From: Acidovorax sp. NCPPB 4044
GTDB lineage: Bacteria; Pseudomonadota; Gammaproteobacteria; Burkholderiales; Burkholderiaceae_C
Length of the DNA: 64,000 nt
Reading direction: 5' to 3'
Assembly (NCBI RefSeq): GCF_028069655.1
Contig: NZ_JAMCOS010000001.1
Coordinates: 340,001 to 404,000 of the forward strand
Of this stretch, positions 2,562 through 56,529 are shown piece by piece (within the stretch, counting starts at the first letter, position 1; each line of letters opens with the position of its first letter). The notes under the pieces were generated by a model. That model saw only the letters and a list, made by a program, of their open reading frames with translations. It did no database searches and was not told where the DNA came from. The translations under genes and the position numbers were made by a program.

Positions 2562-4340
2562 TCAGGAAACGACGAAGTTCTCTATGGCAAGGGCATCCAC
2601 GCAGCCCTGCTGGTAGGCCCGGATCGCGTCTTCCGGCGTGTTGACGATGGGCTCCTCGTGCATGTTGAAGCTGGTATTGACCAGGATCGGCACACCGGTG
2701 AGCTTCTCGTACTGGATCAGCACTTCGTGATAAAGCGGATGCTTTTCCTTCTTGATCAATTGGGGACGCGCCGTTCCATCGACATGGACGACGGCCGGCG
2801 CAAGCTGCCGGTATTTTTCATGCACTTCATAAGTAATGGTCATGAATTCCGCTGCGAATTCCGAGCCTGCAACCTTGCCGGCCAGAACATCCTCTGCGCG
2901 TTCATGGGGCATCACCGGTGCGAAAGGCATGAACTCAGAGCGTTTCATGCGCTTGTTGAGCGTGTCGTTGATCTCGTATTGCTTTGCCGATGCAAGAACA
3001 CTCCGGGCCCCCAGCGACCGGGGACCGAATTCCATGGCGCCACTGAAAAATCCCACCACGCGGTTCTGGGCAATCAGGCTTGCAATGCGCTGGGCTCGAA
3101 GATCCGGGTCGTCGATGCGCTCCACATTCGGGACTGCCGCTTTCTCGAGGGCTTTGGCCACGCGCTCGCTGTCGTAGGAAGGGCCGAGGTACATCGTGTC
3201 CAGTACCCGCCCCGAAAATGCGGGGGCCTGGCGTTTCAGGTCCAGATAGGCCGCTCCCACGCATAGCCCTTCGTCACCCATGTAAGGAGCGACAAAAATA
3301 TTCTGAACACCTTCCAGATTGAAGAGATGCTGGTTCATCTTCACGTTGGCGACCACGCCGCCAGCAAGAACCAGATTGGAGCAGCCGGTCTTTTTCAGGT
3401 AATGCCGGATCAACTGCTTAATGCTGTCTTCAAGCACAGCCTGCGCGGCAGCAGCCATGTCCTCGCGGGTGTATTGCCCCTCCTGGAAATGCTGCCGGAA
3501 AGCCGAACTGGGGCGGTAATTGTTCAATTCATCCTTGAACTGCTGCATGGTCTGCTGTCCGCTGATGAACTTGAAATAGTTGCGAGCCAGGAATATCTGT
3601 TCCGAGGGAAAGTCCCGGGCAAACATGGCATCCACGAGATCCGACTTGATCTTGATTTCGTCTCCCTCCGTGCTGATCTGGAAGAGATTGCTCAGCTTGG
3701 AATAGAGCTTGGCCTTGTCCCCGTAGGCCGCGAGCCCTGTCAGCTTCCCTTCGTGCCTGAAGATGCGAAAGCCCAGTCCGCTGGTAATGGCTCCATAGAA
3801 GAAGCCCAGCGATGCGTTTTCCTTGAATTCCTTGAGGCGCTGCAGTGAACCGCCTTTGCCGTGTGATACGGTCAGAGAAAGTCCGTCGCCACCGCCATCG
3901 ACGGTTACCACCAGGGCATCGTCGAATCCGCACGCATAGTAGGCGCTGGCCGCATGGCACTCATGGTGGTCGTACCATGCCGGTGTACCGGAAATGCCCA
4001 TATTGCGCAGTATGGCCTGCCATTCCGAACGACCGTCTTTCTTCGAAAGGAAGCGCGGCAGCAGCAAGGGATTTCTCAGGCTCTTTTCCTGCTGGTCCGA
4101 TGGCAGAAAATCAATTTTCCTAAAACGGTGTCCGCCCGCAATGGCAACGCCCTGGACACGGGTCATGTCGAAATTTTGTGCGACATGGGCCAGTGTATTC
4201 AAGGGGATGGAGTTGTAGCATTTGATCCGGTTGAACCGCTCTTCGGATGCCGCAAAAAGAATCTTTCCTTCTGCATCGACGACGCAAACGGATGACGTAT
4301 GTTGCGGCGAGATGCCGATGAACAAAGAATTGCTTTTCAT
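2562..4340 (-). CDS. NodU/CmcH-family O-carbamoyltransferase
   Basis: This 592-residue protein belongs to the family that transfers a carbamoyl group from carbamoyl phosphate, through carbamoyl-AMP, to a hydroxyl on a sugar or antibiotic. The N-terminal Kae1-like ASKHA domain shows FIGISPQHTSSVCVVD, SEERFNRIK, the metal-site motif DHHECHAASAYY and the nucleotide-binding TVDGGGDG. The C-terminal YrdC-like part has FGPRSLGARSVLA and RSEFMPFAPV. The length is normal for the family. Its ATG overlaps the stop of the preceding membrane protein gene by 4 bp, so the two are probably translationally coupled. In a polysaccharide locus it probably carbamoylates a sugar of the repeat unit; the acceptor cannot be read from the sequence. 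Confidence 0.9.
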   Translation of the reverse strand: MKSNSLFIGISPQHTSSVCVVDAEGKILFAASEERFNRIKCYNSIPLNTLAHVAQNFDMTRVQGVAIAGGHRFRKIDFLPSDQQEKSLRNPLLLPRFLSKKDGRSEWQAILRNMGISGTPAWYDHHECHAASAYYACGFDDALVVTVDGGGDGLSLTVSHGKGGSLQRLKEFKENASLGFFYGAITSGLGFRIFRHEGKLTGLAAYGDKAKLYSKLSNLFQISTEGDEIKIKSDLVDAMFARDFPSEQIFLARNYFKFISGQQTMQQFKDELNNYRPSSAFRQHFQEGQYTREDMAAAAQAVLEDSIKQLIRHYLKKTGCSNLVLAGGVVANVKMNQHLFNLEGVQNIFVAPYMGDEGLCVGAAYLDLKRQAPAFSGRVLDTMYLGPSYDSERVAKALEKAAVPNVERIDDPDLRAQRIASLIAQNRVVGFFSGAMEFGPRSLGARSVLASAKQYEINDTLNKRMKRSEFMPFAPVMPHERAEDVLAGKVAGSEFAAEFMTITYEVHEKYRQLAPAVVHVDGTARPQLIKKEKHPLYHEVLIQYEKLTGVPILVNTSFNMHEEPIVNTPEDAIRAYQQGCVDALAIENFVVS

Positions 4341-6115
4341 TTTTCCCCCAAACGCTGTGTTGTATGAATGCTGCCGATGGGCGCAGGTATTTCTTTTAGG
4401 GCTTTCACGCCGTTGATCTCGTAAATGCTGATATCCAGCGATCTGCAGGTCAGAGAAACACCGCAGTCTTTTTCGTCGAGGAAATGGCGACCCAGTGATG
4501 TCAGCCGTGGGTCGGAAGAAAGCGTCTGGTGGAGCTGCCGCGCGTTATCCATCAGGCGGTTGTAGATGACGATGCGATTGATTCCATGGCTTGCCAGGAC
4601 ATCGATGGTCCGGGGATCGGCTATGTCCCCGAACAAAGGGCGGGCCTCCGGGTCCCACTGGAAAAGGCGCAGATCTTTCGCGCCTGCCAGCGGTTTCTGG
4701 TGTACGACCTGCCCAATGACCTCAAACAACGGGGCGGTTCCCCATCGCTGGTTGTAATAAGTCATCGGATAGCTGGCTATGGCGGTGACCCGGGTATCTT
4801 CGGCAAGGCTCTCGTAGACTTTTGCCACCTGTGAGAAGTCTGTTTTCTGGCGAATCGTGGGCGAACCGGGGTACGTTTCCGCCAGATACCAGGTCAGGAA
4901 GACAGCCAGACCTGCGACTATCCACGAGGTCCGCTGCCTGCAACTGGCAACGTAGATGGCCACCAGAAGGCCCGCGAAAAAGGAAGCCATCTGTATGACC
5001 CGCGATACGCCGCGGAACATATCGAAAAAGACAAAATAAAGAAAATTGAAACCCGTTAGCGCCGGAACATAAGAAGAGAGAGTGATCGCGCCCGCAAAGC
5101 ACAGCAAGGCAGGTTTGAATGCTGGATGGCTCCAGGATTCTTTGCGGCAACATGCGGCCGTCAGTAACAACAGAAGGGAATAGCCGAGAAATGCGCCCAC
5201 GTCCATGGGTGCGAAGAACGGATAGATCTTTGGCATCACGCCTGGCATGAAAGGCGCACCCTGCTCGAATATGGCAGAAAGCACTTCACCGGGTGGTCGC
5301 ACCAATCCTGCCATGACAGGATTGGTAATCAGGTACCACTGCTGCTGGATGAATTGAATATTCAGAATAAATAAAAACAACCCGCTCAACAGCGAATATT
5401 GTATAAAGCCGATGGCCTTGGATTTCCAACTCTTTTGGGCAAAGACCAGGAATACCGGAGTGAATAGCCACCCGTAAAAAGCCCAGTAGGGGTTGATGCG
5501 GAACTGAAGCCCTGTCAAGATGCAGGAAAACAGAAGCTGGTGCCAGCGGCCTGACTCGCAATACCGAATGAAGCAGAGATAAACCAAGGGCAGCAACCAG
5601 AAATGGTTGTTGGCCATGGAGCCCCGCGACAGCATGATGAAATACCCCGAAAATCCGAAAACGATGGCACCCGCCAAGGACGCGAGTTGCCGCTGCGTGA
5701 GATGCCAGCAGAGCATATACATCGTGGCCGCAGACAGCGGATAGGCAATCAAGGCCGAGGCATTGATGACAAAAACGGCAGCTTGCCAGCCACCGTCCGA
5801 CCAACGGATTGCAGCAGAACGCAGATCGTCGATAAGATTATCGAATGGGAAGGGGCTGAGGTCGAACCCGTAGGGATAGCTCAGCAACGGCGTCAACTCC
5901 ATGCTGGAGAAGATCTTGCCCGAATAGGCCTTGATCCATATGAACCAGAGCGTGCCATCGGTATCGACATCGGGCATCGAATAAACGGCGAACGGATCCA
6001 CGGACCACCAGCGGTGGCTGAAAAGCACCGCAGTCAGGCATATGAAGAGAGCGAATGCCGATCCATATCGCAGTGCGATGGAATAGGGTGGATTGCGGGT
6101 GTTATGTGGCGCCAT
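4337..6115 (-). CDS. Polytopic GT-C-like membrane protein, paralogue of 9405-11174
   Basis: A 592-residue membrane protein with about ten hydrophobic segments across the first 420 residues and a soluble C-terminal part. The first external loop carries an acidic motif (MPDVDTDGTLWFIW), the position where GT-C glycosyltransferases such as ArnT and PMT have catalytic acidic residues. Other conspicuous blocks are FRINPYWAFYGWLFTP, NIQFIQQQW and KTDFSQVAKVYESLAED, all shared with the protein at 9405-11174. It is the first gene of the leftward operon and overlaps the carbamoyltransferase start by 4 bp. It is probably a lipid-phosphate-sugar-dependent glycosyltransferase; the GT-C assignment rests on topology and the acidic loop, not on a recognised family match. 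Confidence 0.75.
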   Translation of the reverse strand: MAPHNTRNPPYSIALRYGSAFALFICLTAVLFSHRWWSVDPFAVYSMPDVDTDGTLWFIWIKAYSGKIFSSMELTPLLSYPYGFDLSPFPFDNLIDDLRSAAIRWSDGGWQAAVFVINASALIAYPLSAATMYMLCWHLTQRQLASLAGAIVFGFSGYFIMLSRGSMANNHFWLLPLVYLCFIRYCESGRWHQLLFSCILTGLQFRINPYWAFYGWLFTPVFLVFAQKSWKSKAIGFIQYSLLSGLFLFILNIQFIQQQWYLITNPVMAGLVRPPGEVLSAIFEQGAPFMPGVMPKIYPFFAPMDVGAFLGYSLLLLLTAACCRKESWSHPAFKPALLCFAGAITLSSYVPALTGFNFLYFVFFDMFRGVSRVIQMASFFAGLLVAIYVASCRQRTSWIVAGLAVFLTWYLAETYPGSPTIRQKTDFSQVAKVYESLAEDTRVTAIASYPMTYYNQRWGTAPLFEVIGQVVHQKPLAGAKDLRLFQWDPEARPLFGDIADPRTIDVLASHGINRIVIYNRLMDNARQLHQTLSSDPRLTSLGRHFLDEKDCGVSLTCRSLDISIYEINGVKALKEIPAPIGSIHTTQRLGEK

Positions 6116-41486: not shown

Positions 41487-43043
41487 ATGAAATTGCGGAC
41501 CCGGATCCTGCTGCTGTGCGGTGCCACGCTGCTGGGATTGCTCGTTCTTTCTGCGGTGGCACTGACCACGCAGTACGAGACCATGGTGCGGGAGCGCACG
41601 TCCCAGCTCTCGACCCTGGTGACACTGGCGCATGCGGCCGCGCAGAAAGCCTACGACCAGGAGAAGGCGGGCCAGCTGTCCCATGAAGATGCCATGAAGG
41701 CGGCCAAGCAGGCCATCGGCAGCTTCCACAAGGGCGACCTGTACTTCTTCGTGCGGGGCTACACCGACGACGTGAACCTCGTGCACCCCAACCCCAAGCG
41801 CATCGGCATCGTCGATGCCAACGTGGGCAGAGCCGCGGGCGAGCGCTACCGCGCGGCGCTGCAGGGCAAGACCATCGGCACCGTCGTGGCCAAGGGAACC
41901 CGCCCGGGGGCCAAGGAAGAGGTGGAGAAGCTCTACGCGATCGTCAAGTTCGAGCCCTGGGACTGGATCATCGGCTTCGGCGATTACATCGACGACATCG
42001 AGAAGGCGTTCTGGCACAACGCGGCCATCCTGCTGGGGATCGGCTCGGCGCTGATGCTGGTCGTCGCCGTGCTGGCCTGGGACATGTTGCGCACGCTGGT
42101 GCGGCAACTGGGCGGAGAGCCGCAGTACGCCGCCGAGGTGGTGCGGCAGATCGCGGAGGGCAACCTGGCCGTGGATGTGCAGACCCGGCCCGGCGATCGG
42201 ACGAGCATCCTGCATGCCATCCAGGTCATGCGAGACAACCTGTCCGCCCTGGTGCGGCAGGTGCGCGAAAGCACCGGTTCCATCACCACCGCCTCCGCGG
42301 AGATCGCGTCGGGCAATGGCGATCTCTCGTCGCGCACGGAATCGCAGGCCAGCGCGCTGCAGCAGACGGCCGCATCGATGGAGGAGCTGACCTCCACCGT
42401 GGAGCAGAACGCGCAGAACGCCCGCCTTGCGAACGAGCTGGCCGTGGCGGCGTCCGGCGTGGCGGTGCGCGGCGGCACCATGGTGGGCCAGGTGGTCGAC
42501 ACCATGGGCTCCATCGATGCGTCCTCGCGCAAGATCGTGGACATCATCGGCGTGATCGACGGCATCGCGTTCCAGACCAACATCCTGGCGCTGAACGCGG
42601 CCGTGGAGGCCGCGCGCGCCGGCGAGCAGGGCCGCGGCTTCGCGGTGGTGGCCAACGAGGTGCGCAGCTTGGCCGGTCGCTCGGCGGCTGCCGCCAAGGA
42701 GGTCAAGGGACTGATCGACGACTCCGTGGCCAAGGTCGGCGCAGGCACCCAACTGGTCCACCAGGCCGGGGCGACGATGCAGGAGATCGTCGACGGCGTG
42801 CAGCGCGTGACGGCGATGGTGGCCGAGATCAGCGCTGCGAGCGCGGAGCAGAGCGCCGGCATCGCGCAGGTCAACCAGGCCGTCTCGCAGATGGACCAGG
42901 GCACGCAGCAGAACGCAGCCCTCGTGGAGCAGGCCCTGGCCGCGGCCCAGTCGCTCAGCCAGCAGGCCCAGGCGCTCTCCCACACGGTCGACAAGTTCCG
43001 CGTGGACGACGCCGCACAGGGCCTGCCCGCGCTGCCGCGCTGA
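41487..43043 (+). CDS. Methyl-accepting chemotaxis protein with a single Cache domain
   Basis: A 518-residue chemoreceptor. Helix 1 (8-28), a periplasmic single Cache (sCache_2-like) domain (about 30-180; [38 protein letters not shown]), helix 2 (about 188-208), HAMP, then the signalling domain with the hairpin tip [20 protein letters not shown] and [18 protein letters not shown]. Pyruvate- and propionate-type sensors use such Cache domains, but the ligand is not predictable. There is no CheW/CheB-binding pentapeptide tail; the protein ends in GLPALPR. A hairpin of two 9-bp arms (43060-43079) follows the stop, without a T-tract. Confidence 0.93.
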
Positions 43044-43113
43044 ACCTTGCCGGGCCCCGGCAGCCCGCCTGCGGGCTGCGCCGGGCGGTTCAGCGCGCCG
43101 CCGGGTCCTCGCG

Positions 43114-43140
43114 CGTGATCCCGAGGAAGTGGTCCTCGAA
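43114..43140. repeat. Left direct repeat and scar of the NadM/Nudix 3' end
   Basis: Bases 43114-43135 are identical to 45049-45070 within the 3' end of the NadM/Nudix gene. Read on the minus strand the segment here encodes DHFLGITREDPAAR and then a stop, which looks like the original C-terminus of that protein, left behind on the far side of the ATPase-DUF4276 insert. The next bases (TCGAA) match the gene again after an 18-bp gap. Confidence 0.8.
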
Positions 43141-43178
43141 AAAGACCCCTTTCCAACCTGGCCAACGCGCGCCTTACA

Positions 43179-43862
43179 TCAACGCTTGCGCTTTCGCAGT
43201 TCGTCGAGAAATCTCTTGGCCCAAGGCGATGCGGTTTCCACGAGGGCCGGATCGACCAGCGCCAGCAGCTTGAAAGAATGGGCTCCTTTGCCGTAGGGAA
43301 GCTTTGTCCGGCAAGCTGCCGTGGCCGCCTCCAGAGCCGTGTACACAGCGGTCTTGTCGGTCTTTTCGATCGCACTGGTCGGTCGGGCTGCTGCCTTGAA
43401 GCCATGGCCGAAGAAGCTCGCCACGGCTTTCCAGTCCGCCAGGAACCAGTTTTCCATACAAGGCACCATGAAGTGGGCGTCCGCGTCCGTTGCAGGCCCC
43501 GGCTGATTCCAACCAGCCTGAGCGGCCAGATGGCTCCACGGCTTGTAGCCCGCGACAGCCGGCGGCTCATGTTGGGCAGCAACCAGGCTCTCGCTATCTA
43601 CCAGCAGCAGGGCGTTTTGTCCCTGCTTGACTGCTGTGCAGAAGCGGTCGAAAGCTTGCTCTCTGCCGCCGCAGGCCACCATGCGTGGCCTGCGGGTGGT
43701 GCCAAGGTCGGTCTTCGAGAGAAACACCGCGAACGCCTGCGCGAACTCTCTTTGCAGTGCAGAGCTACCGGTCCCGCTGCCGCCACCTTCGGCATAAACG
43801 AAGACATCGTTCTTGATGCGCTTCTCTACCACCGCGTGCCTCCGATCTGGCCGCTTGTCCAT
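43179..43862 (-). CDS. DUF4276-family protein, possible TOPRIM-like partner of the ATPase
   Basis: A 227-residue cytoplasmic protein. The N-terminal core has DVFVYAEGGGSGTGSSALQR and then ALLLVDSES, an arrangement like the glutamate and DxD/E motifs of TOPRIM nucleases, followed by HFMVPCMENWFLADW, characteristic of DUF4276. C-terminal KLPYGKGAHSFKLLALVDP completes the family pattern. It follows the ATPase gene on the same strand with a 37-bp overlap if the ATG at 43862 is used; a GTG at 43832 would give a 7-bp overlap. Such ATPase plus DUF4276 pairs recall two-gene defence systems with an OLD-like or PARIS-like ATPase and a TOPRIM effector. The nuclease role is an inference. Confidence 0.8.
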   Translation of the reverse strand: MDKRPDRRHAVVEKRIKNDVFVYAEGGGSGTGSSALQREFAQAFAVFLSKTDLGTTRRPRMVACGGREQAFDRFCTAVKQGQNALLLVDSESLVAAQHEPPAVAGYKPWSHLAAQAGWNQPGPATDADAHFMVPCMENWFLADWKAVASFFGHGFKAAARPTSAIEKTDKTAVYTALEAATAACRTKLPYGKGAHSFKLLALVDPALVETASPWAKRFLDELRKRKR

Positions 43863-44998
43863 AGTTCGCCGAGGCGGTATTTCTCCAGCCAGGGCGCCAA
43901 GTAGTCCGGGTCTAGTCGTTCGATGCGTGACCCCTCGGGATCGCGTTCGCACACGAGAATGGCTTCAGGGTGTTCGGAAAACACATCCATGAAGGCAGGT
44001 GCATGGGTGGTCACGATCCATTGGGCTCGTGTACTGGCTTCCGACAGCAGGCGTGCGAGCGGCGCAAGCATGTCCGGGTGAAGTCCGAGTTCAGGTTCCT
44101 CCAGTACGACGAGCGGGGGCGGTGCAGGGTCGCAAAGCAACGCGAGCAGGGCGAGGTACCGCAAGGTTCCGTCGGACAGGCGGGTGGCGGGTATCGGCCC
44201 AGCGCCCTCGATCAGGAAGATTTGTGCAGCGCCTCCATCGATTTGGACATGCACGTCCTCAATGCCTTCGTAGACCAATTGCAGACCTTCGATGAACTGC
44301 TTCCATGCCGGCCGCTGCATTTTCAGGCGGTTGATCACCAGGGCAAGATTCGAGCAATCCTGCTCCAGCCGGTCGCTGGGCAGATCGGTTTTTTGCTGCA
44401 GGCGGGGCGCCGAATATCGCCCGAAGGTCCATTCCCGGTACAGGCGGATGGCATCGAATTGATCCGCCAGCCATGTCATTTCTGGATAAAGATCCGCATC
44501 CCTTTTCTGCGCGAGGATGGATTGATCCGGCTTGATGGTTTCCCGCATGAGCTTGCGCTCACCCCAATCACGCGCATTCAAGACAGGCCGGCCCTCGTTC
44601 CACCGGTAGAAGAAATAAGGCTGCTCCTCACCTGCTCGGGCTTGCGCATACTCCAAAAATTCGTCTTGGACATTGAGGCGTCCGGCCTCTTGGTTCAATG
44701 CCAGGCCGTAACGCAGGTCTGCTTTGCTCGCGACATTGGTCAGCCGTGCTTCTATGCGTGCGTCTTGTCGTGCCGCTTTGCCTTCTGACTTATGCAGCCA
44801 GTCCTGTATGCCGCCGCCGTCGCGGATCGGCTCAGTAATTCTCCCTGGGGTGGCCTGCAGTAGAGAGATAGCCTCAAGAAAATTGGATTTCCCCGAGCCG
44901 TTCGGTCCGATGAGGATATTGAGCGGACTAAGTTCGGTGGCTTCGCTCTCCGGGCCATAACTCAGGAAGCTGGTGAGTTTCAGACTTTTGATCAGCAT
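43826..44998 (-). CDS. AAA family ATPase (OLD/RecF-like, AAA_21)
   Basis: A 390-residue ABC-type ATPase of the SMC/RecF/OLD group. It has LTSFLSYGPE, the Walker A motif NILIGPNGSGKSNFLEAISL, the signature region RLSDGTLRYLALLALL, Walker B PPPLVVLEEPELGLHPDM and the switch histidine in QWIVTTHAPAFMD. The insert between Walker A and the signature is short, so there is no coiled-coil arm and no TOPRIM domain on this chain; the next gene may supply one. The ATG at 44998 follows a consensus-like promoter so closely that the mRNA could be leaderless. It is less GC-rich than its neighbours and sits with DUF4276 between the two direct repeats. Confidence 0.9.
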   Translation of the reverse strand: MLIKSLKLTSFLSYGPESEATELSPLNILIGPNGSGKSNFLEAISLLQATPGRITEPIRDGGGIQDWLHKSEGKAARQDARIEARLTNVASKADLRYGLALNQEAGRLNVQDEFLEYAQARAGEEQPYFFYRWNEGRPVLNARDWGERKLMRETIKPDQSILAQKRDADLYPEMTWLADQFDAIRLYREWTFGRYSAPRLQQKTDLPSDRLEQDCSNLALVINRLKMQRPAWKQFIEGLQLVYEGIEDVHVQIDGGAAQIFLIEGAGPIPATRLSDGTLRYLALLALLCDPAPPPLVVLEEPELGLHPDMLAPLARLLSEASTRAQWIVTTHAPAFMDVFSEHPEAILVCERDPEGSRIERLDPDYLAPWLEKYRLGELWTSGQIGGTRW

Positions 44999-45002
44999 AG
45001 GG

Positions 45003-45031
45003 TTAGCAAGTGAGGTGCGTGTTGCTGTCAA
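45003..45031 (-). promoter_or_regulatory. Promoter of the ATPase-DUF4276 module
   Basis: On the minus strand TTGACA (45031-45026) and TGCTAA (45008-45003) are 17 bp apart. The TGA of the NadM/Nudix gene (45030-45028) lies inside the -35. Transcription would begin within a base or two of the ATPase ATG at 44998, and no ribosome site precedes that ATG. Confidence 0.55.
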
Positions 45032-46074
45032 CGCAATGGGACACGGTTCGTGATCCCGAGGAAGTGGTCCAGCATATGGAAGTGGTCCTCGAAGAACGCT
45101 TCCTCCAGCGCGGCGAGCGCCGCGATCGGCAGCCACTCCACCTGCGCCGCGTCGTCGTCCGCGCGCACGGCGGGAAAAGCGTCGCTGCCCAGGTCGAAGT
45201 AGTGGGCGTGCGTGATGGTGCGGCCGCGCTGGCTGCGGTCCGGGTGGTCGAACACGGCCACTTCGCGCAGGGCGGCGCGCATGCGGGCCTCGGGCAGTTC
45301 GCAGTGCGTTTCCTCGGCCAGTTCGCGCAGGCACGACTGCCACACGGTCTCGCGCTGCTCGATGAAGCCGCCCGGCGCGGCGAGCTGGCCCTTGCCGGGC
45401 GCGTGTGCGCGGCGGATGAGCAGCACGTGGTCCTGGCAGCGCAGCACGGCGTCCACGGTGACGAACACGGGCGGATAGGGCGCCTGGGCCCAGGCCTCGC
45501 GGTAGCCGCGCAGCATGCGCCATTCCTCCTGCAGCGCCGCATGGTGCGGGCCCGCCGAGAAAGCGCGCAGGAAGTCGAGCGTGCTGTCCGGCATCTGCGC
45601 GGCCAGGGGCCGGAGGGCCGTGAGCAGCGTGTCCGGCGTGGCGCCGAAGACCGCGTCGCGGATGGCGGTGGCATCGATGCTGCCCTGGCGCTCCATGGGG
45701 ATCAGCTGCCAGCCCGGGAAGGCGCGCAGGTAGCTGCTGGTGGCGTCCTTGAAGTGGCCCACGAGGCCGATGCGCGCATCGGGCGGCGTGTGGCGCGACA
45801 CCGTCTGCAACACCGCGGCGACCCAGGCGAGTTCGTTGTAGTGGTCGCGCACGGGCAGCACGGTGAGGCGCGCGCGGTCGGCCTCGGGCAGCGCGTTGCG
45901 CAGCATGGCCTCGCGCTCCTGCCAGGTGAACGGGTTCTTGGGCGAGCGCGCCTGCCAGGCCGAGCCCATGATGACGATGGCGCTGTGCGCGCTGTCCAGC
46001 GCGCGGCGCAGCAGGGCCAGGTGGCCGTTGTGGACGGGCTCGAAGCGCCCGATGAGGATGGCGGTGTCGTACAT
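45028..46074 (-). CDS. Bifunctional NMN adenylyltransferase / Nudix hydrolase
   Basis: A 348-residue protein. The N-terminal NadM-type nucleotidyltransferase has ILIGRFEPVHNGHLALLRRA with the HxGH motif, VIMGSAWQARSPKNPFTW and the later SIDATAIRD. The C-terminal Nudix domain (about 200-330) has GGFIEQRETVWQSCLRELAE and ETHCEL, matching the Nudix box. It makes NAD or NaAD from the mononucleotide and may hydrolyse ADP-ribose. The extreme C-terminus (ITNRVPLR) comes from the module inserted at the 3' end; the presumed ancestral end lies at 43114. The ATG at 46074 matches the family start. It is the last gene of the NAD operon. Confidence 0.92.
   Translation of the reverse strand: MYDTAILIGRFEPVHNGHLALLRRALDSAHSAIVIMGSAWQARSPKNPFTWQEREAMLRNALPEADRARLTVLPVRDHYNELAWVAAVLQTVSRHTPPDARIGLVGHFKDATSSYLRAFPGWQLIPMERQGSIDATAIRDAVFGATPDTLLTALRPLAAQMPDSTLDFLRAFSAGPHHAALQEEWRMLRGYREAWAQAPYPPVFVTVDAVLRCQDHVLLIRRAHAPGKGQLAAPGGFIEQRETVWQSCLRELAEETHCELPEARMRAALREVAVFDHPDRSQRGRTITHAHYFDLGSDAFPAVRADDDAAQVEWLPIAALAALEEAFFEDHFHMLDHFLGITNRVPLR
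45049..45093. repeat. Right direct repeat at the insert boundary
   Basis: Bases 45049-45070 repeat 43114-43135 exactly (22 bp), and 45078-45093 repeat GGAAGTGGTCCTCGAA, which is also in the left copy. This is the intact version in the Nudix reading frame. Confidence 0.8.
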
Positions 46075-50820: not shown

Positions 50821-53583
50821 TCAGGGCGCGGCCCGCCGCGGGGCGCGGTCGGCCCTCTGCGCCCGCTCCAGCACGTTCAACACAGCGTAGTCCCTCGCTT
50901 CCCCGGCGATCCCCAGCGAACGCTTCAGGCCGGTGCGCGCACCCGCATCCAGCAGCAGTTGCACCGCGTCGGCATGCCCCGACATGGCGGCCAGCATCAG
51001 TGCCGACTCGTCGTATTCGGAACTCCAGTCGAGTTCTTCGACGTCCTCCCGGGCCAGCAGAACCCTCAGGACGTCGGTATGGCCTTCGCGGGCCGCGTAC
51101 ATGAGGGGCGTCAACTCCCGGTCGTTGCCGGCATCCGGCTTCGCCCCCGCGGCCAGCAGCAGCCGAACGGCCTCCGCATGGCCGCGCTTCGCCGCGATGC
51201 CGAGCGCGGAGTTTTCCGTCTTGGTGAGCGCATTCACCTTCGCGCCGGACTGCAGCAGCAGCGCCATCATCTCCGTGTTCCCCGTCTTTGCCGATTGCAT
51301 GAGGGGCGTGGTTCCATCGGGCTGCTCCCGCAGTACGTCGGCCTGGGCCGCGATCAGGACTTTCGCCATCCGGACATCCTGCCGTGCGATCGCCTGCATG
51401 AGGGGGCACCGCTCCGATGCATCCGTGCGCGACAGGTCGCTGATCGGGGCGAGGAAGGCCGCCATCTCGTACTGCGCATGCCGGACCGCCTCCATGAGCG
51501 GCGTGGTGCGATCGATCGTGTGTGCATCGGGGTTGGCGCGGTCGGTCCTCGGGCGCAGGCTGCCCAGGTAACCCTGGCGTGCGGGCATCAGCAGTCGGGC
51601 AATGCCCACGCGGCCCTTTCGGGCGGCCTCGTGCAATGCGGTGGTTCCGTCGTGACTTGCCACTGCGACGTTCGCGCCGGCGGACCGCAGCATTTTCACG
51701 ATGGCCTCCTGCCCGTTGGCCGCCGCGGCCATCAGCGGCGTCCGGCCGGTGTTCGATGCCGTGTCCAGCGCGCCGCGGTCTTTGCGGTTCTGGGTGAGCG
51801 TCTGTACCAGGATGCCTACCGATGCCACGTCGCCCGCCTGCGCCGCCAGGTACAGGACCGTTTCGCCCTGGCGATTGCGGGTGCCGAGGGCCGCTCCGGC
51901 CCCCAGGAGATGGCTGACCGTCTGGGTGCGTCCATGCCGCGCCGCCTGCAGCAGCGGGGTATCGCCCCGTGCGTTGGTGGACTGCAGCAGGGCCGGCGTC
52001 GTCAGCAACGACACCACGGCATTGGCCCCTGCGGCGGCAGCGTGGTGCAGCAGGGTGTTGCCGTCCGCATCCTTCCATGACGCGGGCATGGGCAGGCCGA
52101 CCAGCCAGCTGGCGGTGGCCGCGTCGCCGGCCGCCAGGCTCTGAGCGACGGCTGCGGGGCGGTCTTCCTCCGCGAGCTTCTCGACCTCTTCCACGGCCAT
52201 GCCTGCCAGGGCCGATTCGATGGATGGCGACGAGGCGCGGTAGCGCTGCAGCGCGGGATGCATGAGCGCCGCCTGCCACGGGGTGCCGCTGGCGGATGCC
52301 GCCGAGCGGATGAGGGGCCAGACCCTCGCAGGGTCGAGGCCGCGCAGTTCCTCGGGGTCTTTCGTGGCGGCGAGGGCGTGCATCAGCAGTTCGGACGACC
52401 ACTCGGCCGCCGGGGGAAGATCGGGCACCCGCACGCTGCGATAACCGACATCGCCGGCACGGGTCGTTTCCTTCACGTAGAAGTCGCCTGTGCCGATCCG
52501 CTTGATCCTGCGCATGCCGTCCTGCGTCTTCGAAGTGTCGATGACGGCGCACTTTTCCTTCTCGATCAGCCCCTGCGTCTTCATGTTCTTCGCGATGGTG
52601 CGCATGAGCAGCGCAGGGTCCGCGATGACCGAATAGGGCGCCTCTTCGCTGCCGGTGGGCTCGTGCCCGGAGATGACGACAGCGGCCGGGATCGGTCCGA
52701 AGCGGCTCTGCAGGCCGGTTTCGAGGTGGTCGCGGTATTCGGCATGCAGCCGGTAGGCCGTCTCCTCCGTCAGCGCGCAGCCCAGGTGCGGCCGGAAGTG
52801 CTCCTGCAGTTCGGCCAGGCACTCTTCGGCCAGGTTGCGCACCAAAGCGTCGGGCGCCACGCGCGCCTCGGCGAAAGCCAGCGCGTCGGCCGCATGGGCG
52901 TTGACGGTCGGCCTGTCGACGAACTGGTCATCGCGCCCGGCGACCTGGAACTTCTTCGCCAGCAGATTGCGGTAGCCGTTCACATAGTGGATCTCGTTGA
53001 TCTCGTAATGCTCGCTGTCGCCGTGCCGAGCCTGGCTGAAGTCCCGCAAGGCCTGGTCCAGCATGCCTTCCCAGACCTTCTGGGCGTGGGTGTGCAGCCC
53101 CTTGTTCAGGGTCAGTTCCTGCACGGCCATGACCAGGTTGGCGAGGCTGCCCTCGGAGCAGACCTGCAGCCCCTCCGCCAGGTTCTCGAGGATGTCGATG
53201 CGGGTCGACAGCGGCGTCGCTTCGTCGGTGATGGCCACGCACAGGGTGTCCAGCGACGCCTTGCCCTCGCCATAGAGACGCGTCACGTGGCCGGAGAAAA
53301 ACCCGTCGGCACCCTCGCGCACGCGTTGGTGGAACGTGTCCAGGGCGTGGGCGGCCTGCTGTGCCCTGGCCGGGGACGGATGGTTGTCGCGGAGGAAACG
53401 CTGGAGCGTCTCGATACCGGTCCGGTACTGCTGGATGAGCTGCTTGCCGCGCGCCGATTTCTCGAAGGCGCGCACGGAAGATCCGTCGCGTCGGCGTTCG
53501 TAGCGTACGGCGGTCTGTTCGGGGTAGGGCTGCGCAGGCGCATCGGTGCGCGCTTGCGGACGAAAGAGGGGGGTGATCCGCAT
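50821..53583 (-). CDS. Ankyrin-repeat protein, candidate type III effector (paralogue 2)
   Basis: A 920-residue protein with no signal peptide or membrane helix. Residues 1-400 form a conserved domain shared with the next gene (TPLFRPQAR, VRAFEKSARGKQLIQQYRTG, LYGEGKASLDTLCVAITDEA, EIHYVNGYRNLL). From about residue 480 to 900 there are roughly a dozen ankyrin repeats, for example DGNTLLHHAAAAGANAVVSL and RGDTPLLQAARHGRTQTVSH. Host-protein binding is the usual use of such repeats in secreted effectors. A PIP-box-like promoter lies at 53603-53664. The N-terminal 400 residues match no domain I can name. Export by a type III system is an inference; no hrp genes are in the window. Confidence 0.85.
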   Translation of the reverse strand: MRITPLFRPQARTDAPAQPYPEQTAVRYERRRDGSSVRAFEKSARGKQLIQQYRTGIETLQRFLRDNHPSPARAQQAAHALDTFHQRVREGADGFFSGHVTRLYGEGKASLDTLCVAITDEATPLSTRIDILENLAEGLQVCSEGSLANLVMAVQELTLNKGLHTHAQKVWEGMLDQALRDFSQARHGDSEHYEINEIHYVNGYRNLLAKKFQVAGRDDQFVDRPTVNAHAADALAFAEARVAPDALVRNLAEECLAELQEHFRPHLGCALTEETAYRLHAEYRDHLETGLQSRFGPIPAAVVISGHEPTGSEEAPYSVIADPALLMRTIAKNMKTQGLIEKEKCAVIDTSKTQDGMRRIKRIGTGDFYVKETTRAGDVGYRSVRVPDLPPAAEWSSELLMHALAATKDPEELRGLDPARVWPLIRSAASASGTPWQAALMHPALQRYRASSPSIESALAGMAVEEVEKLAEEDRPAAVAQSLAAGDAATASWLVGLPMPASWKDADGNTLLHHAAAAGANAVVSLLTTPALLQSTNARGDTPLLQAARHGRTQTVSHLLGAGAALGTRNRQGETVLYLAAQAGDVASVGILVQTLTQNRKDRGALDTASNTGRTPLMAAAANGQEAIVKMLRSAGANVAVASHDGTTALHEAARKGRVGIARLLMPARQGYLGSLRPRTDRANPDAHTIDRTTPLMEAVRHAQYEMAAFLAPISDLSRTDASERCPLMQAIARQDVRMAKVLIAAQADVLREQPDGTTPLMQSAKTGNTEMMALLLQSGAKVNALTKTENSALGIAAKRGHAEAVRLLLAAGAKPDAGNDRELTPLMYAAREGHTDVLRVLLAREDVEELDWSSEYDESALMLAAMSGHADAVQLLLDAGARTGLKRSLGIAGEARDYAVLNVLERAQRADRAPRRAAP

Positions 53584-53602
53584 GGAAGCTCCTGGTGCCC
53601 CG

Positions 53603-53664
53603 ACGGTAGAGGCACCGGATGCCGGGGGCGTGCGCGGATCCGAAGCGAGTGCCTGAATGGCGAT
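53603..53664 (-). promoter_or_regulatory. PIP-box-like HrpX promoter of ankyrin gene 2
   Basis: On the minus strand ATCGC-N15-TTCGG (53664-53640) differs from the PIP box TTCGB-N15-TTCGB at one base. TACCGT (53608-53603) fits the YANNNT -10 and lies 31 bp downstream, inside the 30-32 bp window known for HrpX promoters. The 123-bp gap between the two ankyrin genes is otherwise empty. Confidence 0.65.
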
Positions 53665-53706
53665 GGGGCACTCAACGGACCGCGAACGGCGGGCAGATGA
53701 CCAGCG

Positions 53707-56529
53707 TCAGCTTCCCGTACGGGGTTCCCGAGGACGCGTGGCTCCTTCGGTCTTCTGGAAGGCTGCGAGCAATTCCAACACTTCCGGGTGACCCTCCGAC
53801 CGGGCGATTCTCCGGGCCTGCTCCAGGCCCTCCCGGGCACCGGCCTGCAGTAGCAGCTTCACCACGGCAGTATGGCCCTTGGCCGCGGCCATCACCAGCG
53901 CCGTGTCTCCGTTGAAGGCGCGGTCTTCCACGCCGCAGATTTTGCGGCGCAGCAGCAGTTCGACCATGTCGGCATGCCCGTTGGCCGCCGCATACACGAC
54001 GGGGCTCGTGTGGTCGTCTTCGGTGGGTTTCCACCGCAGATCTTTCGGGGCGTTCCTGCGCAGCAGGGCATCGACGGTCTCGACGTGGCCATTGCTCACG
54101 GCCTCCTGGAACGGCTTCCGGTGAATGCTGACGAGGTATTCCCGGGGATTTGCGTCCAGCAGCAGTTCGAGCGCGGCCGTGTGGCCACGGCCGGCCGCGG
54201 CGATGATGTCCCCCTCGTCCGGCTTTCCGCCGGACTTCAGCAGCAGGTCCACCATCTCCGGTTGGCCCGTGATGGCCGCGTTTCTCAGCGGGTTGGCGCC
54301 TATCAAAGAGCCCTTGACCCTGGCCCCGGCGCCGATCAGGAACTCGGCAGCGCGCATGTTCTTCTGGTTCACTGCGCGCGCCAATGCTCCGTTCATGTCC
54401 CAATCGGGCTGTGAGAGGTTGCTCTTCGGGGCCAGCAGGGCCGCCATCTCGTAATGGCCGCGATCGAGCGCCTCCATGAGCGGCGTGACTCCACCGTGGA
54501 GGATTCCCGTGAAGGCTTTGGGATCGGCGCGGGCGTCCAGGAGCATCCGGGCGCAATCCATGCGGCCGTGGCGCGCGGCCTCGTGCAGGGCCGTGGTGCC
54601 GTCGCTGCTGTAGGCATTGACGTTGGCGCCGGCGCTGTGCAGCATCTTCACGATGGCGGTCTGGCCGGAAGCCGCGGCGACCATCAAGGGCGTGCGCCCC
54701 GTCCGAGATGCCGCATTGAGCATGCTGCGGGCCTTGGCATTCTGGAGACTGGCTTGCACCAGTACCCCCACCGAGGCCGCATCGCCTGCCTGCACGGCGA
54801 GGTAGAGCGCCGTCTCACCCTTCTGGTTGGATTTGCCGATATCGGCCTTGGCCTGCAGAAGCTGGTGCACCGTCGTGGTCCGGCCGTAGCGTGCGGCATG
54901 CAGGAGCGGGGTATCGCCCCGGGCGTTGGTGGTCTCGAGCAGCGCCGGTGTCATGAGCATCGAAACGAGGGAATCGGCCCCCGCGGCGACTGCGTGGTGC
55001 AGCAGGGTGTTCTTGTTGGCGTCCACCCACGATGAGGGCATGGGCAGTGTGGCCAGCCAGCTGGCGGTGGCGGTGTCGCCGGCCATGAGGCTCTTGGCCA
55101 CGGCGGCGGGCCGTTCGGCTTCGGGCAGGTTGTCTACCTCTTCCACGGCCTTGTTCACCAGGAACGATTCGATCGCCGGAGAGGCGGCCCGGTAACGCTG
55201 CAGCGCGGGGTGCATCAACGTGGCCTGCCATGAAGCGCCGCCTTGCTCCGCCGACGAGCGGATCAGCGCCCAGACCCGCTCGGGGTCGAGGCTGCGCAGT
55301 TCTTCGGGATCCTTCGTGACGGTGAGCGCATTCATGAGCAGCGCGGAGGACCACTCGCCGTCCGCAGGCAGATCGGACACCCGGACGTCGCGGTAGCCGG
55401 CCTCGCCTTCGGTGGTCGTCTCTTTGACGTAGAAGGCCCCGTCCGTGATCTGCTTGATCTTCCGGTTGCCTTCCTCGGTCGATGCGGTGTCGATGGCGGC
55501 GAATTTCTCCTTTTCCAGCAGCCCCTGCGTTTTCATGTTCTTCGCGATGGAGCGCATGAGCAGTGCCGGGTTCATGACGATGGAGTACGGCGCGTCCTCG
55601 TCGCCGGTGGGCTCGTGCTCGGAGATGACGACCATGCCTGGAATCGGGCCGAACCGGCTCTGCAGCCCCGCTTCCACGTTGTTCTCGTATTCGGTGCGCA
55701 GCTTGAATGCAGTCTCCAGCGTCAATGGGCGGCCCAGGTGCTCCCGGAAGTGCTCGTGGATTTCCGACAGGCAGGTCTCGGCGAGGTGGCTCACCAACTG
55801 CTCGGGGTTGACGCGGGCCCGCACGAACCCTGCGGCTTCTTCGGCATGGTTGCTGACGGCCTGCTGGTCGACGAAGCTGTCGCTGCGTTCGGCAACCTTG
55901 AATTCGTCCGCGAGGAAATTGCGGTAGCCGTTCACGTAATGGATTTCGTTGCCCGCATAGTGCTCGACACGGCCGTGCTTCGACTGGCTGAAATCGCGCA
56001 CGGCCTGGTCCAGCATGTTCTCCCAGGTCTTGCGTGCATGGGAGTGCAGGCCCTTGGCGAGGTTCATGTCCTGGACGGCCATGATCAGGTTGGACGTGGT
56101 GCCTTCGGAGCAGACCAGCAGCCCTTCGGCGAGGTTTTCGATGATCTCCATGCGCGTCGACAGCGGAATGGCTTCGTCGGCCATGGCCACGCACAGCGCG
56201 TCCAGCGACGCCTTGCCTTCGCCGTACAGGCGTGCGATTTGCGTGGAGAAATGCCCGTCGATCCCTGCCTCCACCCGGCTGCGGAACACGTCCAGCGCAT
56301 CCGCGGACTGCTGCGAGGTAGCGGAGGGGTGCTCGTGCAGAAAGGCTTTCAGCTTGCCGATGCCGGCCCGGTACTGGGTCATCAGCTGTTTGCCCCGCTC
56401 CGATTTCTCGAAGGCGCGTACGGAGGTGCCGTCCTGCCGCGGATCGTAGCGGACGGCTTTTTGCGCAGGGTAGGGTTCCGCAGCGGTATCCGCGCGCGGT
56501 GGGCGGTGGAAAAGGGGGGTGACTTGCAT
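53707..56529 (-). CDS. Ankyrin-repeat protein, candidate type III effector (paralogue 1)
   Basis: A 940-residue paralogue of the protein at 50821, similar along its whole length: the same N-terminal domain (TPLFHRPPR, VRAFEKSERGKQLMTQYRAG, EIHYVNGYRNFLADEF) and about twelve ankyrin repeats from residue 490 (ANKNTLLHHAVAAGADSLVS, DGTTALHEAARHGRMDCARM). The C-terminal repeats diverge most: here the last ones include a block around KDLRWKPTEDDHTSPVVYAA absent from the other copy. The two genes are tandem on the minus strand but each has its own PIP-like promoter. It has no signal peptide. Type III secretion and a plant target are inferences. Confidence 0.85.
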   Translation of the reverse strand: MQVTPLFHRPPRADTAAEPYPAQKAVRYDPRQDGTSVRAFEKSERGKQLMTQYRAGIGKLKAFLHEHPSATSQQSADALDVFRSRVEAGIDGHFSTQIARLYGEGKASLDALCVAMADEAIPLSTRMEIIENLAEGLLVCSEGTTSNLIMAVQDMNLAKGLHSHARKTWENMLDQAVRDFSQSKHGRVEHYAGNEIHYVNGYRNFLADEFKVAERSDSFVDQQAVSNHAEEAAGFVRARVNPEQLVSHLAETCLSEIHEHFREHLGRPLTLETAFKLRTEYENNVEAGLQSRFGPIPGMVVISEHEPTGDEDAPYSIVMNPALLMRSIAKNMKTQGLLEKEKFAAIDTASTEEGNRKIKQITDGAFYVKETTTEGEAGYRDVRVSDLPADGEWSSALLMNALTVTKDPEELRSLDPERVWALIRSSAEQGGASWQATLMHPALQRYRAASPAIESFLVNKAVEEVDNLPEAERPAAVAKSLMAGDTATASWLATLPMPSSWVDANKNTLLHHAVAAGADSLVSMLMTPALLETTNARGDTPLLHAARYGRTTTVHQLLQAKADIGKSNQKGETALYLAVQAGDAASVGVLVQASLQNAKARSMLNAASRTGRTPLMVAAASGQTAIVKMLHSAGANVNAYSSDGTTALHEAARHGRMDCARMLLDARADPKAFTGILHGGVTPLMEALDRGHYEMAALLAPKSNLSQPDWDMNGALARAVNQKNMRAAEFLIGAGARVKGSLIGANPLRNAAITGQPEMVDLLLKSGGKPDEGDIIAAAGRGHTAALELLLDANPREYLVSIHRKPFQEAVSNGHVETVDALLRRNAPKDLRWKPTEDDHTSPVVYAAANGHADMVELLLRRKICGVEDRAFNGDTALVMAAAKGHTAVVKLLLQAGAREGLEQARRIARSEGHPEVLELLAAFQKTEGATRPREPRTGS

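Follow-up and report, generated by a model that had tools for sequence, protein, structure and literature searches.

The systems closest to the locus described here combine an OLD-type ABC ATPase with a TOPRIM domain. In class 1 and 2 OLD nucleases and in GajA of the Gabija system, both domains reside on one chain, unlike in the pair reported below (PMC10568477, available portion). In PARIS they are located on two separate chains, AriA and AriB; according to the accessible text of PMC9122126, DUF4435 (PF14491) is the marker of AriB, and the anti-restriction protein Ocr is the trigger of the system. PARIS is further characterized by tRNA cleavage. TOPRIM-linked OLD-ABC modules inside BREX loci have been described as backup effectors (PMC12839542, excerpted text). 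HEC-01, a candidate system of PADLOC ('Hma-embedded candidate'), consists of two overlapping genes. The HEC candidates reportedly go back to the Payne et al. 2024 bioRxiv preprint (10.1101/2024.01.29.577857). They were found by 'guilt by embedding' and several were shown to be antiviral, HEC-06 being named (PMC12988326, available portion), and one defence paper of this literature, as far as its excerpt goes, lists HEC under mechanism unknown. Here we analyzed a stretch of 64,000 nucleotides of Acidovorax sp. NCPPB 4044 (contig NZ_JAMCOS010000001.1, positions 340,001 to 404,000; henceforth the window, to which all coordinates refer), in which a gene pair of the HEC-01 type, encoding an OLD-type ATPase and a DUF4276 protein, is inserted at the 3' end of the nadM/Nudix gene. 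Defence genes turn over quickly, and to our knowledge it is little understood how two-gene systems that lack a recombinase reach new chromosomal sites.

On the minus strand, nadM is followed after 29 bases by the ATPase gene, the overlapping DUF4276 gene and a displaced nadM end, beyond which lies the convergent gene for a methyl-accepting chemotaxis protein (MCP):

45028..46074, minus strand: nadM/Nudix gene, present end ...DHFLGITNRVPLR (NF003788, E-value 2e-105, 353 bits against a cut-off of 354)
45049..45070, minus strand: right copy of the direct repeat, within the present 3' end of nadM (GGACCACTTCCTCGGGATCACG)
43826..44998, minus strand: OLD-type ABC ATPase gene, HEC-01A, with a Rad50/SMC-like head (390 amino acids; no TOPRIM on the chain)
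43179..43832, minus strand: DUF4276 gene, HEC-01B, a predicted TOPRIM nuclease (217 amino acids; GTG start)
43114..43135, minus strand: left copy of the direct repeat, belonging to the displaced native nadM end
43090..43143, minus strand: displaced tail of nadM, FFEDHF-LGITREDPAAR-stop, lacking 18 bp that nadM has between its two GGACCACTTCC motifs
41487..43043, plus strand: MCP gene, convergent with nadM (PF00015, E-value 5e-55)

A first-pass annotation of the window had placed the pair between exact 22-bp direct repeats at the end of nadM, and both repeats are present as described, with the two genes taking up 1820 of the 1913 bases between them. In the 5.32-Mb genome this repeat occurs in two copies only, at up to two mismatches. 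Read on the minus strand, the left repeat leads into LGITREDPAAR, followed by a stop codon (43090-43092), and when the flanks are joined this tail is in frame with nadM, which bears out its earlier description as the displaced end of that gene. That description was incomplete in two respects: the present nadM does not stop at the repeat but passes through it to a new six-codon end (NRVPLR and a stop codon), and the left copy is longer than 22 bp. Indeed, positions 43125-43143 match 45078-45096 with one mismatch, and toward the DUF4276 gene the left copy goes on as TTTTTCGA, matching nadM before its first GGACCACTTCC motif. Relative to the nadM end, the left copy lacks 18 bp, namely the stretch that separates the two GGACCACTTCC motifs. 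This difference may have arisen when non-equivalent copies of the motif crossed over, or through slippage at a later time. A background of 444 kb from this genome (the window and 19 stretches of 20 kb) contained, as other exact repeats of at least 20 bp at a spacing of 1-3 kb, one pair within two neighbouring paralogous genes, a 968-bp repeat and a tandem-repeat region. A 20-bp exact repeat is common to two adjacent, paralogous-looking minus-strand open reading frames (ORFs) of 920 and 940 amino acids (window 50821-56529), and tandemly repeated units of about 144 bp occupy about 3752-5800 of the stretch L183 (G000:C1:700001-720000, where G000 denotes the window genome).

The site was compared with that in 16 genomes of the same genus, none of them of the same species, a grouping that includes Acidovorax sp. 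SUPP3334 (G006). In five of these genomes (G001, G003, G005, G013 and G015) nadM is directly followed by the convergent MCP gene without a module, and in G006 a module with nothing besides the two genes lies between nadM and MCP, which makes MCP a neighbour of nadM in all six; nine of the remaining genomes had no MCP match in the stretch taken, and in one the contig ends early. The joined flanks of the window form one open nadM, the alignment of which with G013 and G015 crosses the junction, and both sides also align with G003, G005 and G001, where the tail itself is not conserved. Such a match of the joined flanks with empty sites is predicted by an insertion. The pair is inserted at the end of nadM, with a scar at the site and empty sites in relatives, as had been proposed. 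The predicted empty site was likewise found in form, the nearest empty sites ending in LGLTREPTAD where ITREDPAAR had been expected. In a tree of nadM, G000 pairs with G011 (support 100/97) and G006 with G003 (98/96), and the module is missing at nadM in both of these sisters; because the branches are well supported, at least two changes on the nadM tree have to be assumed. Compared with G011, the nadM end of G000 is different beyond LGIT, whereas the G006 end diverges from those of G003, G007 and G016 just after DHF. No flanking repeat was found at the G006 copy. The ATPases of G000 and G006 are 83% identical, while the 44 further aligned relatives reach at most 73%, apart from one metagenome protein with 80%, and for this reason the two modules are close kin that reached, or stayed at, the same gene end. 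A higher third-position divergence of the module was rejected as proof of separate gains, as its G+C content at third codon positions (GC3) is much lower than that of its surroundings.

The gap between nadM and MCP looks like a small variable spot. Just downstream of nadM in G011, the closest relative, a zeta-toxin-family gene stands in the place of the module (L039:8747-9529, minus strand; PF06414, E-value 6.5e-11), and no MCP match was found in the stretch taken. In G016 (L047), nadM is directly followed by an ORF of 364 amino acids that appears transposase-like. Because nadM combines a readable scar, empty sites in relatives and, in a second species, a related module at this gene end, the question of how such pairs spread becomes testable within one genus. 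The scar, along with the related pair that a relative carries at this spot, offers a hint of the way in which they travel.

The pair is a candidate defence system that has already been catalogued as HEC-01. The ATPase matches the HEC-01A profile PDLC04177 with an E-value of 3.3e-160 (residues 1-390 on 3-393 of 393) and its partner matches the HEC-01B profile PDLC04201 with an E-value of 4.2e-60 (residues 20-225 of a 227-residue frame on 4-199 of 202), and these two profiles fit the pair far better than any other listed profile. What is apparently new are the reading of DUF4276 as a TOPRIM domain and the gene-end scars: our literature search found no paper naming DUF4276, for which databases may already give the TOPRIM reading, and nothing on such repeats and hotspots. 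The first-pass annotation had seen a leftward ATPase gene with all ABC-ATPase motifs and no TOPRIM, and we could locate four motifs (GPNGSGKS at residue 31, LSDGT at 274, EEPELGLH at 300 and TTHAP at 330), with no TOPRIM on the chain in a Pfam search. The overlap with the DUF4276 gene, likewise recognized then, amounts to 7 nucleotides if the GTG at 43832 is taken as the start of the latter, an ATG at 43862 being a possible alternative. The sole Pfam family of the partner at an E-value cut-off of 0.001 is PF14103. A search of the sequences in the PDB with the DUF4276 profile yielded nothing at an E-value of 1; in the structure comparison that the first-pass annotation had recommended, its predicted fold is of the TOPRIM type, which suggests that DUF4276 supplies the TOPRIM part in an OLD-type pair. 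Of the two motifs originally described, the E-G motif was read correctly (E15-G16) and the supposed D-x-D-type motif is in fact D-x-E (D79-S80-E81). E15, D79 and E81 are invariant across 66 aligned DUF4276 sequences, are also present in the window copy, and would be metal-binding residues in a pattern of E followed by D-x-D/E. We take E15 to be the probable counterpart of E26 of AriB, based on the motif pattern and on where the aligned ranges start (6 to 17).

With respect to the known systems, the window pair shares with PARIS the two-gene layout and the presence of an OLD-ABC ATPase and a (predicted) TOPRIM on separate chains, and to this extent the original comparison with PARIS was apt. 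Membership in PARIS was rejected, however, as the partner is a DUF4276 protein without a DUF4435 match and the best profiles are those of HEC-01A and HEC-01B. The ATPase is related by sequence, and the TOPRIM by predicted structure, to the class 1 and 2 OLD nucleases and to GajA. The OLD-ABC modules of BREX loci have the same architecture, and relatives of the pair have the same embedding among BREX genes, going by the available portion of PMC12839542, the main text of which contains neither the term DUF4276 nor the term HEC. The window pair agrees with HEC-01 in both profiles, in its overlapping genes and in having relatives inside defence operons; it differs in that it stands alone at the end of a housekeeping gene, with a repeat scar derived from the target. 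Its GC content (0.585 for the ATPase gene and 0.616 for the DUF4276 gene) is lower than that of nadM (0.716) and MCP (0.685), and the same applies to GC3 (0.66 and 0.70 versus 0.943 and 0.921, respectively).

Relatives of the pair were collected from GTDB genomes as at least 80 named loci. Among genomes of the same taxonomic family, 8 of 399 are carriers, the window genome included. A DUF4276 match was found beside the ATPase at 74 of the 80 loci (two of these matches being weak, with 40 and 23 bits), and at three of the six loci without a match at most 81 bp of sequence extend past the ATPase. A defence-related gene lies within two ORFs of the pair at 26 of the 72 loci with a clear pair (BrxC-like at 17, PglX or PglZ without BrxC at 4, PglW at 2, type III mod and res at 1, and HsdR or DarG at 2) and the other 46 have no neighbour related to our ten defence seeds, which were PADLOC-identified neighbours chosen by eye, so that other defence neighbours may have been missed; the 72 loci include two near-identical pairs (L063/L064 and L070/L072). 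The family is thus found near defence genes, in line with what the first-pass annotation would have it. Among 69 downstream neighbours analyzed with PADLOC, the PglX, PglZ and methylase families lead. Integrases were not among the best 25 of 65 and the best 25 of 79 Pfam families of adjacent ORFs, which excludes little given that the ORFs were picked mechanically. The pair adjoins nadM at one of the 80 named loci, the Acidovorax one, and at L096 nadM is located about 4 kb from the pair with other genes in between. At L060 the pair lies between mod and res of a type III restriction system. At L091 the pair and one ORF are apparently placed between gatA and gatB of a housekeeping operon, and no repeat that flanks them reaches a score of 20.

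To see how common flanking repeats are in the family, the 500 bp before the ATPase gene were compared with the 400 bp after the DUF4276 gene, with a score of at least 20 as the cut-off, set after the scores had been seen. In a first set, 3 of 69 loci reached this score (the window, L111 and L131), compared to none of 544 cross-locus controls and 4 of 1049 same-locus controls; 12 of 80 loci had been dropped for want of a clear adjacent DUF4276 match or because of a short flank. In a second set, 1 of 17 loci did so (L148, read longer as L165) against a cross-locus maximum of 16 in 272 comparisons; of its 35 loci, 12 were dropped as duplicates or already used, 4 by the adjacency rule (L162 among them does have a DUF4276 match) and 2 as short. 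Both sets together give 4 of 86 loci, or 3 of 85 when the window, which prompted the test, is excluded (Fisher p-value = 0.011 against the same-locus control), and one same-locus control scores 23.5, which is above the 22.0 of the window. A rule that such pairs are always flanked by repeats was rejected on these counts. The repeat of L148/L165 comprises 49 bp of a Fic gene (PF02661) at its 3' end, the displaced copy lying 14 bp past the DUF4276 match. In L131 the repeat covers about 62 bp at the 5' end of hsdR, and in L111 about 83 bp directly at the start of a DUF2961 gene or immediately ahead of it. At all four repeat loci the module has the same direction as the gene whose end is doubled. 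The repeat copies in L165, L131 and L111 are about 75-90% alike, a visual estimate made on the alignments, which would fit a donor origin of one copy. Weaker repeats near the pair at L128 (15 bp) and L097 (23 columns) were below the cut-off and not counted. A 35-bp repeat at L114 was set aside, being 704 bp from the ATPase gene and beside what reads, from its sequence, like an IS30-like transposase.

We consider it fairly probable that an OLD defence pair of the HEC-01 type was inserted codirectionally into the last codons of nadM by the following route and serves as a sensor and nuclease. The incoming DNA would have been bounded on both sides by sequence resembling the nadM 3' end, like a circle with one nadM end, and would have crossed over at the GGACCACTTCC motif, which nadM holds twice. 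Integration would rebuild an open nadM with a new tail and place the pair behind it, with 29 nucleotides from the nadM stop to the ATPase start. Prophage e14 in icd likewise replaces the 3' end of its target gene and displaces the old end, but it carries an integrase, which the window module lacks. As for function, comparison with PARIS and OLD systems suggests that the ATPase acts as a sensor that holds the DUF4276 nuclease until a phage signal releases it, possibly a counter-restriction protein similar to the trigger of PARIS; the nuclease would then cut RNA or DNA and halt growth before the phage multiplies. A PARIS-like role, with an anti-restriction protein as trigger, would fit the embedding of the family in BREX and restriction operons. 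The pair was called mobile in the first-pass annotation, and the insertion itself and the presence of a related module at this site in one relative agree with this; there is, however, no recombinase in the pair, the two genes of which fill the interval between the repeats, and the pair had no match in plasmid and phage collections (tblastn at 1e-40 and 1e-30). In other taxa the pair is found at other places, mostly without flanking repeats of this kind. A further-reaching reading, which we consider unlikely, is that HEC-01-type pairs move as cassettes without a recombinase, being excised as small circles with one copy of a gene end, re-entering the matching gene in another strain through crossover within that short stretch, replacing its end and being co-transcribed with it; the scars at nadM, fic, hsdR and the DUF2961 gene, along with the related module at nadM in a relative, would then represent one process.

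A scar with a swapped gene end resembles attL and attR, and L165 carries a tyrosine-integrase gene about 1.8 kb ahead of its ATPase gene, so the pair might be the remnant of a larger integrative element with its attachment site at the nadM 3' end, from which integrase and cargo were deleted. We regard this as unlikely, as the genes leave no room between the repeats and the G006 module consists of just the same two genes; moreover, a motif search in 18 relatives revealed no clear second nadM end within 6 kb downstream of nadM, which excludes little since the motifs are poorly conserved. The existence of the nadM-module-MCP arrangement in G006 is also consistent with import from a donor of that arrangement, by homologous exchange of a long tract spanning nadM and MCP, in which case nothing would have moved on its own in this lineage. 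Third-position identity is indeed lower in the module (0.51 and 0.58) than in the flanks (0.71-0.78), a difference that may be due, in part or in full, to the lower GC3 of the module. Over the 325 residues that precede the repeat, however, the nadM proteins of G000 and G011 share 96% identity, and the displaced tail has a native appearance (TRE...). The insertion point thus lies in this lineage or a very near one, and such an exchange is rather improbable.

The occurrence at the same site in two species, and an amino-acid identity of the G000 and G006 ATPases (0.83) that matches that of nadM (0.815), would also be expected if the pair were ancestral to the genus and had been lost many times. 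This would require exact deletions at five clean nadM-MCP junctions, both carriers have sisters without the pair at nadM, and the scar shows an insertion into an intact nadM end, all of which makes ancestry highly improbable. As to function, the pair might serve DNA repair or cell-cycle control instead of defence, as has been reported for an archaeal OLD ATPase. The 46 loci without a neighbour related to the defence seeds would allow for this, and the archaeal OLD protein Cran1 is apparently not antiviral, according to the available portion of PMC12796447. We nevertheless judge a role outside defence to be very unlikely, considering the patchy presence of the pair in the family and its embedding in BREX and restriction operons.

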